The position numbers and the translations under genes are program-made. A model generated the notes under the pieces. The model made no database searches and had not been told where the DNA came from. It saw only the letters and a list, made by a program, of their open reading frames with translations. Positions 21,806-37,048 of a stretch of DNA of 64,000 bases are shown here, piece by piece. This DNA comes from Desulfovibrio gilichinskyi (lineage in GTDB: Bacteria; Desulfobacterota; Desulfovibrionia; Desulfovibrionales; Desulfovibrionaceae): positions 620,001-684,000 of the forward strand of contig NZ_FWZU01000001.1 in the NCBI RefSeq assembly GCF_900177375.1, given 5' to 3'. Numbering within the stretch: the first letter of the stretch is position 1; each line of letters begins with the position of its first letter.

Positions 21806-22231
21806 TTATCTGATTCCTTTAGGATGACATACGGAGGCTGTGCATCCAGTCATTTTAGGATCATTTCCGAATTCTTTAACGTGACACGATAAGCATGAAT
21901 TACGCTTTGTGTTGTTGCGTTTAATATGCATTGCCTTGAAGTAAGACTTGTAACCTTTGACAGGGACCGGTTCAAAGTTTGTGTGACAGGTCGCACAACT
22001 TGTAGGAACCTTGGTTTTTTTCAGAGCATGGTGGCAATCAACACATTCATAATTTTCATGATTTGCGTGATTGAAACTAACTCCGATATTGCTTTTGCTG
22101 TTACCCTTAATGAAGTTGATCATAAGATCACCTTCAGGAGCTTCAACCGCTTTTTTGTCACCTGCGTTTGCTGCGATAGCTAAAACCGTCATGCCTAGAC
22201 AGATGAGGCACACGATAAATAAGTTTTTCAT
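21806..22231 (-). CDS. Tetraheme cytochrome c3 family protein (formate dehydrogenase partner)
   Basis: Periplasmic electron carrier of 141 residues with a signal peptide (about 1-23, ending ANAG). Four haem-binding sites are visible: CVDCH (63-67), CATCH (79-83), CLSCH (113-117) and the longer CTASVCH (130-136), the mix of CX2CH and CX4CH seen in cytochrome c3. His55, His58, His68 and His102 are candidate distal ligands. AAGAGGAAA precedes the ATG. It follows fdhB by 24 bases and ends the operon, so it is the probable third subunit of an FdhABc3-type enzyme passing formate electrons to the periplasmic cytochrome pool. Confidence 0.9.
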   Translation of the reverse strand: MKNLFIVCLICLGMTVLAIAANAGDKKAVEAPEGDLMINFIKGNSKSNIGVSFNHANHENYECVDCHHALKKTKVPTSCATCHTNFEPVPVKGYKSYFKAMHIKRNNTKRNSCLSCHVKEFGNDPKMTGCTASVCHPKGIR

Positions 22232-22255: not shown

Positions 22256-23011
22256 TTAGGCTTTGTTGTTTTTACCGACAGCCGCTTTCAAAAAACCGCG
22301 ACGTGATTGCTTTGTAGAAACAGGGCCATGAGCCATCATAGTATTACGCTGTTCAGCTGAAGCCAGAAGATGATCATGATAATTTTCCGGTGCTGATTCG
22401 CACAGGTAGATAACCCGAACATCTTCAGGGTCGGCAAGGAAAGCTTTCGGCTTGGTCTTTTGAACCTCTGCCAGACGCTTATTCGCAAGCGCGAGCATAT
22501 CATCACGATCACCGAAGTTCATGGTTCCGGTCGGACAGCTCTTCACACACGAAGGAAGCATACCCATTTCAACTCTGTCTATGCACATGTCACATTTGTT
22601 CCACAGACCTGTTTTCGGGTCTTGACGCGGTACATTGTAAGGGCAGATCTCTTCACTTGTAATTTTACCCGGTATGATGACGGCCTTATCCGTCATTACA
22701 ACTGCGCCGGTTTCAGGGTCTTGAGTTACTCCTCCGGGCGCATACATATTGATCATGTATTTACATGGAGGCTCAATACAATGCCGGCACTGTTCAGGAA
22801 AGAACAGCCAGCTCAGCTTACCTTTATCATCATGCACTTCATTAAAGCGTACAAGGCGAATAGTTTTAGAAGACAAGTCCTGCGGGTTCTGATGTGATCC
22901 CACATTACGAGTATGTTCCGCAGGCAGTTTTTTCCACTGCTTGCAGGCTACCTGACAACCGCGGCAGGCGGTACAGAGAGTGAGGTCTACAAAAAAGGAT
23001 TTACCGTTCAT
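22256..23011 (-). CDS. fdhB: Formate dehydrogenase iron-sulfur (beta) subunit
   Basis: Electron-transfer subunit of 251 residues. Twelve cysteines, arranged CTACRGCQVAC (13, 16, 19, 23), CRHCIEPPC (75, 78, 83), C123, CDMC (140, 143) and CVKSC (155, 159), fit three [4Fe-4S] clusters as in periplasmic Desulfovibrio FdhB; C204 is extra. It lacks a signal peptide and a C-terminal membrane helix, so it should be carried across the membrane by the Tat signal of FdhA. The start overlaps the fdhA stop (TAATG), with AAGGAGG upstream. Oddity: SRRGFLK at 236-242 near the C-terminus looks like a twin-arginine motif in the wrong place. Confidence 0.93.
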   Translation of the reverse strand: MNGKSFFVDLTLCTACRGCQVACKQWKKLPAEHTRNVGSHQNPQDLSSKTIRLVRFNEVHDDKGKLSWLFFPEQCRHCIEPPCKYMINMYAPGGVTQDPETGAVVMTDKAVIIPGKITSEEICPYNVPRQDPKTGLWNKCDMCIDRVEMGMLPSCVKSCPTGTMNFGDRDDMLALANKRLAEVQKTKPKAFLADPEDVRVIYLCESAPENYHDHLLASAEQRNTMMAHGPVSTKQSRRGFLKAAVGKNNKA

Positions 23012-26000
23012 TATCTGTCACCCTCCTTCCACTTGCGCAGATTCACCATAAAGGCTTTATATTCAGGAATACCGGTATTCGGGTCGCCGACGTTCGGAGT
23101 AACTATATTAGCGGAGTCTCCGCCGTTGATAGGTGTTACCCATCCGAAATGCCATGGCATACCGACCATATGAATCTGTTGCCCTTGAATTAAGTAAGGG
23201 CTGATTCGTTCGGTAACCATTGCAATAGCCCACAGTGAACCGCGAATACTTTCAATTGTGACTTTGTCACCGTTTTCAATTCCGCGAAGTTTAGCCAGTT
23301 CCGGGCTGATTTCTACAAACATCTGCGGCTCAGCTTCAACGAGCCATGATTGCCAGCGGGTCATTGAGCCAGTCTGCCAATGTTCGGTGACACGATAAGT
23401 TGTTCCGACAAATGGATAGCGCGGGTTACAAACTGCTTTTTTCTCACTTAGAATCTGCACAGCTGTCGGGCTGTGAAGACGCTTGGAGAATGGATGGTCT
23501 GCAACCGGACATTCCAGCGGTTCATAGTATTCAGGAAGCGGTCCATCAGCGCGACCTGGGCCGAACAGCTGTCCGAAGCCATTTTTCTGCATGATAAATG
23601 GATGTTTTGTTCCGGGCTTCCATCCGCCATCAGGAACATCGCCGATCCATTTTGTGCCGTTCCATGCAATGACAGGTTTTTCCGGATTCCAAGGATTACC
23701 GTTGGAGTCTACAGATGCACGGTTATATAGAATACGACGGTTAACAGGCCAGCACCATGTCCAGTTAGGGAACAAACCGATTTTTGCCTGTTCTTTAGTC
23801 TGAGAAGCATCATGCCGTTCAGCTTTATTGCCTTCATCGGTTACGGAGTTGCAATACAGCCAGTTACCGGAAGTTGTTGAACCGTCAGCCTGTAAGAAAG
23901 CAAAGCTCGGAACCTGCTGCCCTTTTTTAAATGATTTACCGTTTACGACAGTATCTTTTGTGAACCATCCGTTTGCAAGTTTAGCTGTCTGCTGAGCACT
24001 GAATTCGTACTTACCTTCTTCATTCTTTTCACACATATTATTGAAACTTAAATGTGTGATCGGTTCAGGGTATGCACCGCCTTCGGCTTCATAAAGGTGA
24101 ACAAGCTCTTCCCATATTTCGTGGAAGTAATGACCGTCAGTCTTTACATCACCAAAGGTGTCAGGTCCCTTGTAACGCCATTGCATCCAGCGACCTGAGT
24201 TGGAGACTGATCCTTCTTTTTCAATAGCAGAAGCACACGGGATAAAGAATGTTTCAGTCTTGACCTTCTTTGGGTCCATGTCCGGACCTTTCCAGAAGTC
24301 ACTTGTTTCACAGCGGAAAAGGTTTACGTTGACCATCCAGTCCAGTTTGCTGAGAGCCTTACGGGTTTTAAATGAGTCAGAACTCGAACACGCAGGGTTC
24401 ATTCCCCATACAAGACCGCCGCTAAATCCGCCTTCATACATTCTGTCGATCAGTGGAATCCATGAATAGACACTGGCTTTATGTGAATCCAGACGAGGAA
24501 GATATTGATATCCTTCTTCCGGTGTGTCCTCAGAATACATCGCCTTTATAAGGCTGGCAGAGTACTTAGGATAATTCTGCCACCAGTTGGCACTTTCCGG
24601 GTCCTTGCTGGCAGGAGTATAAGTATTGTTGTATTGCTCAAGAGTATCTTGACCTGCAAGCGGAGTTTTAAGATAGCCGGGAAGGATATGGTAAAGGAGA
24701 GCGTAGTCAGTTGAACCCTGAACGTTACATTCACCGCGAAGTGCGTTAACACCTCCGCCGGCAATACCTATGTTACCAAGCATTAGCTGGATCATTGCCA
24801 TGGCGCGAATGTTCTGAACTCCGACTGAATGCTGCGTCCAGCCCATTGCGTACATGATAGTTCCGGCTTTATCTTTCACGCCGGTAGCTGTGTATGTCTT
24901 GTAGAGTAATTCAAGATCCTTAGTTGAAACACCGGAAATAGATGAAACTTTTTCAGGTGTATACCGTGAGTAGTGATCTTTAAGAATCTGGAATACACAA
25001 CGAGGATTTTTCAAACTCTTATCTTGTTTCGGAACACCATTTTCATCAAGTTCAAAAGCCCACTTTGACTGGTCGTATGAATTGGTGGTGTGGTTGAATC
25101 CGCTGAATAAACCGTCGTTAAATCCGTAATCTTTGCCAACTATAAAAGCTGCATTGGTATAGTTGACCATGTATTCAAGGAAATACTTTTTATTATTGAT
25201 GATATAGTTGATCATACCGCCGAGGACAGCGATATCAGTACCTGAGCGTAAAGCAATATAAGCATCAGATCTGGCTGATGTGCGTGTGAAGCGTGGGTCG
25301 ACATGTATGATTTTGCCGCCGCGCTGCTGTGCTTTTACAGCCCATTTAAAGGAAATTGGATGATTTTCGGCAGCGTTACTGCCCATTATCAAAATACAAT
25401 CACTGTTTTGTAAATCGTTCCAGTGATTTGTCATCGCGCCGCGTCCGAACGACTCTACCAGAGCCGCAACTGTTGCGCTGTGTCAGATCCTTGCCTGATG
25501 TTCAACATAGACCAGGCCTAAAGAACGCATGAAGCTGTGCATAGCTAGACATTCTTCATTATCCAGCGCAGCTGAACCAAGAGAAGCGATTCCCATGGTG
25601 CGGTTAACGACCTGACCTTTATCATTCTTTTCCTGAAAAGATTTGTCGCGAGAATCTTTTATAAGACGGGCAATACGTTTTTTGCAAAAGTCCCAATCTT
25701 TTTCTACAAATTCTTCACCGTAAGGTGCGCGGTACAGAAATTTTCCGGGACGATCCGGATTTTCTGTCATCTGAATAGAGCTTGCTCCCTTAGCGCAAAG
25801 CGAGCCTTCATTAATAGGGTGATCAGGATCACCTTCAACGTTGACTGCCCGTTTGGTTTCAAGTGAGGTGTTTACTAAAAGACCGCAACCGACAGAGCAG
25901 AAAGCACAGACTGAAGTGGTTTGTTTGGTCCATTTAGGATCAAGGTTTTTAGCCCGATCAACAGCCGGAGCTGCAAAAGCCTTACTGAGTCCGCCGAAAG

Positions 26001-26073
26001 CCGGAACAGCAGCAAGCCCGGCGGCTGCAACCGTTGTAAGTTTCACAAAATCTCTACGATTAATTCTCATCAT
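23011..26073 (-). CDS. fdhA: Selenocysteine-containing formate dehydrogenase alpha subunit
   Basis: Catalytic subunit oxidising formate to CO2 with a bis-MGD molybdenum or tungsten cofactor. One gene of 1020 residues, interrupted at codon 197 by UGA (25483-25485) in the context ARI-U-HSATV, where formate dehydrogenases have Sec or Cys. Sequence on both sides is in one frame and a SECIS-like hairpin follows, so this is recoding, not a broken gene. The N-terminus has a Tat signal (INRRDFVKL, then a hydrophobic run to AFA). One [4Fe-4S] cluster is held by C56, C59, C63 and C93. The C-terminal molybdopterin domain includes KRLHSPTAVQ and HFGWVTPINGG. AAGGAG lies just before tandem ATGs; the second ATG has better spacing. 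Confidence 0.95.
25450..25466 (-). promoter_or_regulatory. SECIS hairpin candidate in fdhA
   Basis: Starting 16 bases after the UGA, CGGCTCT pairs with AGAGTCG (one G-T pair) around the loop GGT. Bacterial SECIS elements sit directly downstream of UGA with an apical loop containing GGU/GU that SelB binds, about 16-37 bases from the codon; here the loop begins 23 bases after it. Confidence 0.8.
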
Positions 26074-36709: not shown

Positions 36710-36797
36710 GCCGAGGTGGTGGAATTGGTAGACACGCTAGCTTGAGGGGCTAGTGGAAGTTAATTCCGTGGGGGTTCGAGTCCCCCCCTCGGCACCA
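36710..36797 (+). tRNA. tRNA-Leu (anticodon GAG), copy 1
   Basis: An 88-base cloverleaf: acceptor GCCGAGG/CCTCGGC, anticodon stem CTAGC/GCTAG around TTGAGGG (anticodon GAG, reads CUC and CUU), a long class II variable arm (TGGAAGTTAATTCCG), T-arm GGGGG-TTCGAGT-CCCCC, and encoded CCA. It is identical to the second copy. Confidence 0.96.
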
Positions 36798-36960: not shown

Positions 36961-37048
36961 GCCGAGGTGGTGGAATTGGTAGACACGCTAGCTTGAGGGG
37001 CTAGTGGAAGTTAATTCCGTGGGGGTTCGAGTCCCCCCCTCGGCACCA
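36961..37048 (+). tRNA. tRNA-Leu (anticodon GAG), copy 2
   Basis: Exact 88-base copy of the gene 251 bases upstream, again with encoded CCA; flanking sequences differ, so only the tRNA is duplicated. It is followed 11 bases on by a terminator, so both copies are probably made from one transcript. Confidence 0.96.

Follow-up and report, generated by a model that had tools for sequence, protein, structure and literature searches.

We found that, in a bacterium of the sulfate-reducer type, fdhA, a formate dehydrogenase gene in the window (the whole stretch of 64,000 nucleotides that was analysed), contains an internal stop codon that is very probably read as selenocysteine (Sec). The product would be a Mo/W formate dehydrogenase with Sec as metal ligand, its UGA decoded through SelB and a hairpin, and with an electron route of the FdhABC3 type; we give this reading a probability of roughly 0.97. 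SelB binding, actual Sec insertion, export, assembly of the complex and the metal used are what we infer for this gene.

The fdhA locus

With translation table 11, the fdhA region falls into one ORF of 196 aa and another of 807 aa. When the UGA is read through, a single frame of 1020 residues is obtained, with U at position 197. The first-pass annotation had reported a single TGA at codon 197 in the context ARI-U-HSATV, with coordinates 25450-25485, and a 7-bp stem (CGGCTCT/AGAGTCG) starting 16 bases past the TGA. All of this was confirmed on the minus strand, the hairpin running from 25466 to 25450. The locus contains the following features:

23011..26073, minus strand: fdhA, catalytic subunit of a Sec-containing formate dehydrogenase, 1020 aa when the UGA is read through
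25765..25926, minus strand: [4Fe-4S]-binding domain of FdhA (Molybdop_Fe4S4, PF04879), residues 50-103, coordinates derived from residue numbers
25483..25485, minus strand: in-frame UGA, codon 197, at the Mo/W-ligand position (Sec)
25467..25482, minus strand: 16-nt spacer between the UGA and the hairpin, variable
25450..25466, minus strand: predicted bacterial SECIS hairpin, supported by conservation, 7-bp stem CGGCUCU/AGAGUCG, apical loop GGU
22256..23011, minus strand: fdhB-like iron-sulfur electron-transfer subunit, 251 aa (PF13247, E = 8e-37)
21806..22231, minus strand: tetraheme cytochrome c3-like subunit, 141 aa (PF02085 Cytochrom_CIII, E = 1.3e-16)

FdhA scored 1399.7 bits against TIGR01553 (formate dehydrogenase-N alpha), exceeding the curated cut-off of 814.2. 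The best group of solved chains (1485-1496 bits) carries the name selenocysteine-containing formate dehydrogenase alpha, and lower scores were obtained for 1h0h (1395.6 bits) and 1kqf (901.9 bits). Both 30gj and 6sdv show X (non-standard) as the residue aligned to the UGA. Against the Sec reading stands the solved chain with the highest score, 9qm0_A, in which this residue is C. By eye, the N-terminus contains a Tat-type motif, RRDFVK, and the protein is probably exported. When the window was searched for other single in-frame TGAs flanked on both sides by 70 codons or more, two sites came up; each is antisense to a longer ORF, fdhB in one case and an ORF of 473 aa in the other.

The FdhB-like and tetraheme c3-like genes adjoin fdhA downstream, an order and content of genes of the FdhABC3 type. 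The FdhB-like protein reached 142.2 bits against TIGR01582, under the cut-off of 334.7; three CxxCH and one CxxxxCH heme motifs were read from the sequence of the c3-like protein. After export, FdhA would pair with the adjacent Fe-S subunit and the c3 cytochrome, and electrons from formate would pass through the FdhA complex to the periplasmic cytochrome pool. Elsewhere in the window, two tRNA-Leu genes, both with anticodon gag, were found at 36710-36797 and 36961-37048, spaced by 163 bases.

Relatives with a name indicate Desulfovibrionaceae; among those listed, the nearest is Desulfovibrio sp. UBA2564 at 88%, and Maridesulfovibrio is a possible genus. We compared this locus with known systems. 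According to PMC13397495, 6SDV is FdhAB from Nitratidesulfovibrio (Desulfovibrio) vulgaris Hildenborough, and the enzyme in 1H0H comes from M. gigas. FdhA aligned almost end to end with the N. vulgaris enzyme (6SDV, 1491.0 bits), which has Sec at the UGA position and an FdhB-like partner; the window locus differs by its additional downstream c3-like cytochrome gene and by Ala instead of Pro three residues after Sec. The same source gives FdhABC3 of N. vulgaris and D. desulfuricans as an alpha subunit, a beta subunit and a tetraheme cytochrome c, its structure not resolved; our locus resembles it in gene content. The major subunit of E. coli Fdh-N (1KQF) gave the 901.9-bit match, and FdhA belongs to the formate dehydrogenase-N alpha family TIGR01553, but the window fdhA has fdhB-like and c3-like genes as its neighbours.

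Conservation of the UGA and its hairpin

Limits for bSECIS elements have been published (PMC13188914, Figure 2): a loop of 3-9 nt, a stem of 4-16 bp, G as the first and second loop base, a distance of 16-37 nt from UGA to loop, and a minimum free energy of at most -7.5 kcal/mol. The fdhA hairpin lies within these limits in its loop (3 nt), stem (7 bp), GG and UGA-loop distance (23 nt), and resembles the published model in these respects. For the energy limit in that figure the outcome depends on the stretch folded: -11.4 kcal/mol was obtained for 40 nt, -10.5 for 36 nt from the UGA and -7.1 for the bare 17-nt hairpin, which is just short. One of its seven pairs is a G-U wobble.

Folding of the 40 bases after the UGA had been proposed as a check in the first-pass annotation. 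The fold obtained was not clearly beyond chance, since 27/200 shuffles folded equally well (z = -1.15); the corresponding values were 51/200 (z = -0.64) for 43 nt and 79/200 (z = -0.25) for 61 nt. The bare 17-nt hairpin gave z = -3.19 with 4/200 shuffles, for a stretch that was selected because it pairs. Hairpins with 7 bp and a 3-nt loop are common, with 188 starts in the window on both strands and 4 within the fdhA coding sequence. Folding energy is thus not exceptional and alone proves no hairpin. When 5001 bases were searched with E limited to 1, the Rfam family SECIS_3 (RF01989) alone matched, at 28.2 bits (E = 0.003), below the gathering score of 63, and it pairs the stretch differently; the hairpin was not assigned to SECIS_3. 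As neither the z-scores of longer stretches nor the Rfam threshold lent support, we relied upon comparative evidence instead.

Sec and Cys genes were drawn from the matches listed, and the numbers of Cys copies are to be read as 'at least'. The codon-identity set consisted of 109 Sec genes (window included; seven Sec pairs are >98% identical) and 17 Cys genes, leaving out L061, L072, L098, L136 and L137, which were unplaced or too short. A set of 154 rows was made without L061 (too short) and after removal of 10 near-duplicates (at least 99.5% identical). Addition of 43 rows gave the widest set of 197, with L222 unplaced and six new near-duplicates removed. One partial copy in genome G034, which covers the site and is without TGA, was left out of the comparison. 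The peptide patterns used to fetch loci from named genomes do not overlap with the hairpin.

Among the matches listed, 15/15 same-genus orthologs (16 genomes, 85-97% identity) have the UGA and all 7 pairs. A base-calling error, with the TGA really being TGC or TGT, had been named earlier as a possible objection and is excluded by this conservation. A lone stop within a frame usually points to a sequencing error or a nonsense mutation, and a decayed fdhA fragment does exist in this genome. Nevertheless, for fdhA to be a broken or mis-read Cys gene is exceedingly improbable: the TGA recurs in 161/197 dereplicated rows as well (among the matches listed), the protein alignment continues past it to residue 1020, the hairpin accompanies TGA and not TGC or TGT, and the Sec machinery is present. 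Conservation in independent genomes refutes this explanation.

Synonymous codons downstream of the UGA were then compared. At codons +6 to +11, synonymous identity in the 109 Sec genes was 1.00, 1.00, 1.00, 1.00, 1.00 and 0.98 (among the matches listed), against a gene mean of 0.445 (sd 0.14); at distances above 24 codons, the highest value for any stretch of 12 codons was 0.55. The 17 Cys genes had no raised synonymous identity at the same codons (0.42 vs an average of 0.51). All 7 pairs were found in 123/124 Sec and 2/30 Cys genes of the 154-row set, and in 151/161 Sec vs 2/36 Cys genes of the widest dereplicated set, in both cases among the matches listed. Two Sec rows (L084 and L212) carry a compensatory change at the base of the stem, from C-G to A-U. 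The spacer is variable, with 38 distinct sequences in the 109 Sec genes (among the matches listed). Judged by comparison, the predicted FdhA hairpin is clearly real, with strong Sec-specific conservation.

The hairpin might also be a by-product of protein conservation with no SECIS function, given that AALxES is conserved as a peptide and that the longer stretches have weak fold z-scores. Cys genes, however, have a similar peptide and are mostly without the pairing (among the matches listed, all 7 pairs in 2/36, and six in one), and they also lack the codon conservation. Moreover, just 12 of the 4608 synonymous encodings of AALVES are able to form 7 pairs, and 4 of these have the GG loop as well. 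At this site the 7 pairs arose in 0/5000 synonymous recodings weighted by codon usage, while 59/5000 were as stable by any fold. An origin from protein constraint alone was rejected on the loss of pairing in Cys genes and the 12/4608 encodings; we consider it highly implausible.

The loop had been described as of the GGU type. The window loop is GGU and the GG is invariant, but the third base is free: 152 Sec genes with at least 6/7 pairs have GGC (119), GGG (18) or GGU (15), among the matches listed. GG rather than GGU is therefore the conserved part. In the stem, the sequence is identical in 149/161 Sec genes among the matches listed, a point of difference from the bSECIS model. Each stem pair involves a codon position fixed by AALxES, and because the constraints of coding and pairing overlap, most of the near-invariance is explained without sequence-specific reading of the stem. 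That just one of the four possible encodings is in use suggests a further preference, perhaps for Watson-Crick pairs over wobbles.

In 9/161 Sec genes, all from distant members of the phylum, this hairpin is absent and other folds are predicted. These nine were chosen from the lower part of the match list, so 151/161 is no natural frequency. Three Cys copies (L038, L098 and L122) retain 6-7 stem pairs, which probably persist from a Sec that was lost recently. SECIS remnants of this kind, and Sec-to-Cys conversion in FdhA, have already been described (PMC1794560, section 9). In three genomes, Cys and Sec copies of fdhA lie 1.2-1.5 kb apart (L169/L181 in G075, L135/L036 in G028, L131/L145 in G041), which suggests that they are alternative isoenzymes.

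Selenium machinery in the genome

The first-pass annotation had predicted selA, selB, selC and selD at other places in the genome, and all four were detected above cut-off. In a genome search selB scored 386.6 bits, above its cut-off of 242.25, and selA 602.3 bits, above its cut-off of 267.9; a single ORF lies between the two. tRNA-Sec scored 80.1 bits (gathering score 47) and was also called by ARAGORN as tRNA-SeC with anticodon tca. selD (L011, C2:36409-37326) scored 328.4 bits (cut-off 125). All 14 control genomes gave weak matches to tRNA-Sec and selD, with five genomes exceeding the cut-off for tRNA-Sec and two that for selD; for this reason only above-cut-off matches were counted. In the predicted pathway, SelA would produce Sec-tRNA from tRNA-Sec with a selenium donor supplied by SelD. 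SelB with Sec-tRNA would bind the hairpin just 3' of the UGA and deliver Sec in place of termination. The claim that this enzyme uses selenocysteine finds support in the sel set, the conserved UGA and the Sec-specific conservation of the hairpin.

The presence of selA, selB, tRNA-Sec and selD also bears on whether the UGA is bypassed without SelB or Sec, for instance by a near-cognate tRNA, or whether the two ORFs are separate proteins. The table-11 ORFs of 196 and 807 aa do flank the stop, but the metal-ligand position would then be wrong or missing, and the hairpin is within most SECIS limits. We regard such a bypass as extremely unlikely, and two separate proteins were rejected, given the lost metal ligand and the sel set.

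selD carries a UGA of its own within the frame, in the context UAAK, which makes the synthase of the selenium donor a probable selenoprotein too. This context agrees with UxxK, the motif that PMC13188914 lists for SelD. In total, at least four genes of the genome, three for FdhA and one for SelD, have an in-frame UGA where Sec is likely. The second fdhA (C4:396043) has a stem identical to that of the window gene and the loop GGC. The third (L017, C1:1040379-1041080) is FdhF-like and lies near an [FeFe] hydrogenase gene; its predicted hairpin has the loop GGUCU 18 nt past the UGA, vs 23 nt in the window fdhA. The SECIS loop of E. coli is a few nt closer to the UGA than that of the window fdhA, and the GGUCU loop resembles it. 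With a window-type and a GGUCU-type hairpin in one genome, two hairpin layouts appear to exist in one organism.

The genome also contains a decayed short fdhA fragment (L016, positions 1384-1866; C4:430991-431320 plus flanks) from which the active-site stretch is gone. Its four closest relatives among the matches listed are Cys copies from same-genus genomes, 88-90% identical over 107-110 residues. The fragment and its relatives suggest that the window lineage has lost a Cys isoenzyme of FdhA.

Residue 200 and the exchange of Sec for Cys

A second position was found to vary with the Sec/Cys state. Residue 200 of FdhA, three after the Sec (window 25474-25476, minus strand), is Ala in the window gene. 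The coupling was first noticed in 105 Sec and 16 Cys rows (among the matches listed). In the 154-row set, again among the matches listed, Sec genes have Ala (119), Pro (4) or Ser (1) at this position, and Cys genes have Ser in 30/30. Residue 200 was by a wide margin the most informative column, giving 0.67 of 0.71 bits, with 0.32 for the next one. A FastTree tree from which this stretch had been left out showed 14 Sec/Cys changes, and residue 200 co-switched in 12-13 of 13 independent pairs.

The coupling was weaker in the 43 added rows, which were intended as held-out but were in part hand-chosen from the match list, and two of whose six Cys rows belong to the window's own family. Among the matches listed, Sec genes of these rows have Ala (27), Ser (6) or Pro (4) and Cys genes Ser (4), Pro (1) or Ala (1). 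Over all 197 rows, the exceptions are Ser in 7/161 Sec genes and a residue other than Ser in 2/36 Cys genes (among the matches listed). With FastTree on the widest set, 14-16 of 17 independent Sec/Cys pairs agreed on the switch and none opposed it. Ser-200 was found in 6/9 Sec genes with the other hairpin type vs 1/152 with the window-type hairpin, and this concentration may reflect an RNA-level cause.

We tentatively propose, at somewhat less than even odds, that exchange of Sec for Cys is accompanied by a change from Ala/Pro to Ser at residue 200, either because Ser adjusts the active site to a working thiolate ligand or because Ala/Pro is required only together with the downstream type of SECIS. 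The data are compatible with a protein-level or an RNA-level cause. A limited literature search, covering parts of PMC13188914, PMC13397495, PMC12013277, PMC10779653 and PMC1794560, gave no report of this switch, which may still have been published.

FdhA is an ordinary, already known selenoprotein arrangement; its hairpin fits the published SECIS limits on loop, stem and spacing, and the finding is therefore correct and ordinary. Its value lies in correct annotation, as the plain code breaks the enzyme into two ORFs. If it holds, the residue-200 switch would provide a concrete, cheap test of what lets Cys replace Sec in formate dehydrogenases, enzymes that are of interest as CO2-reducing catalysts.
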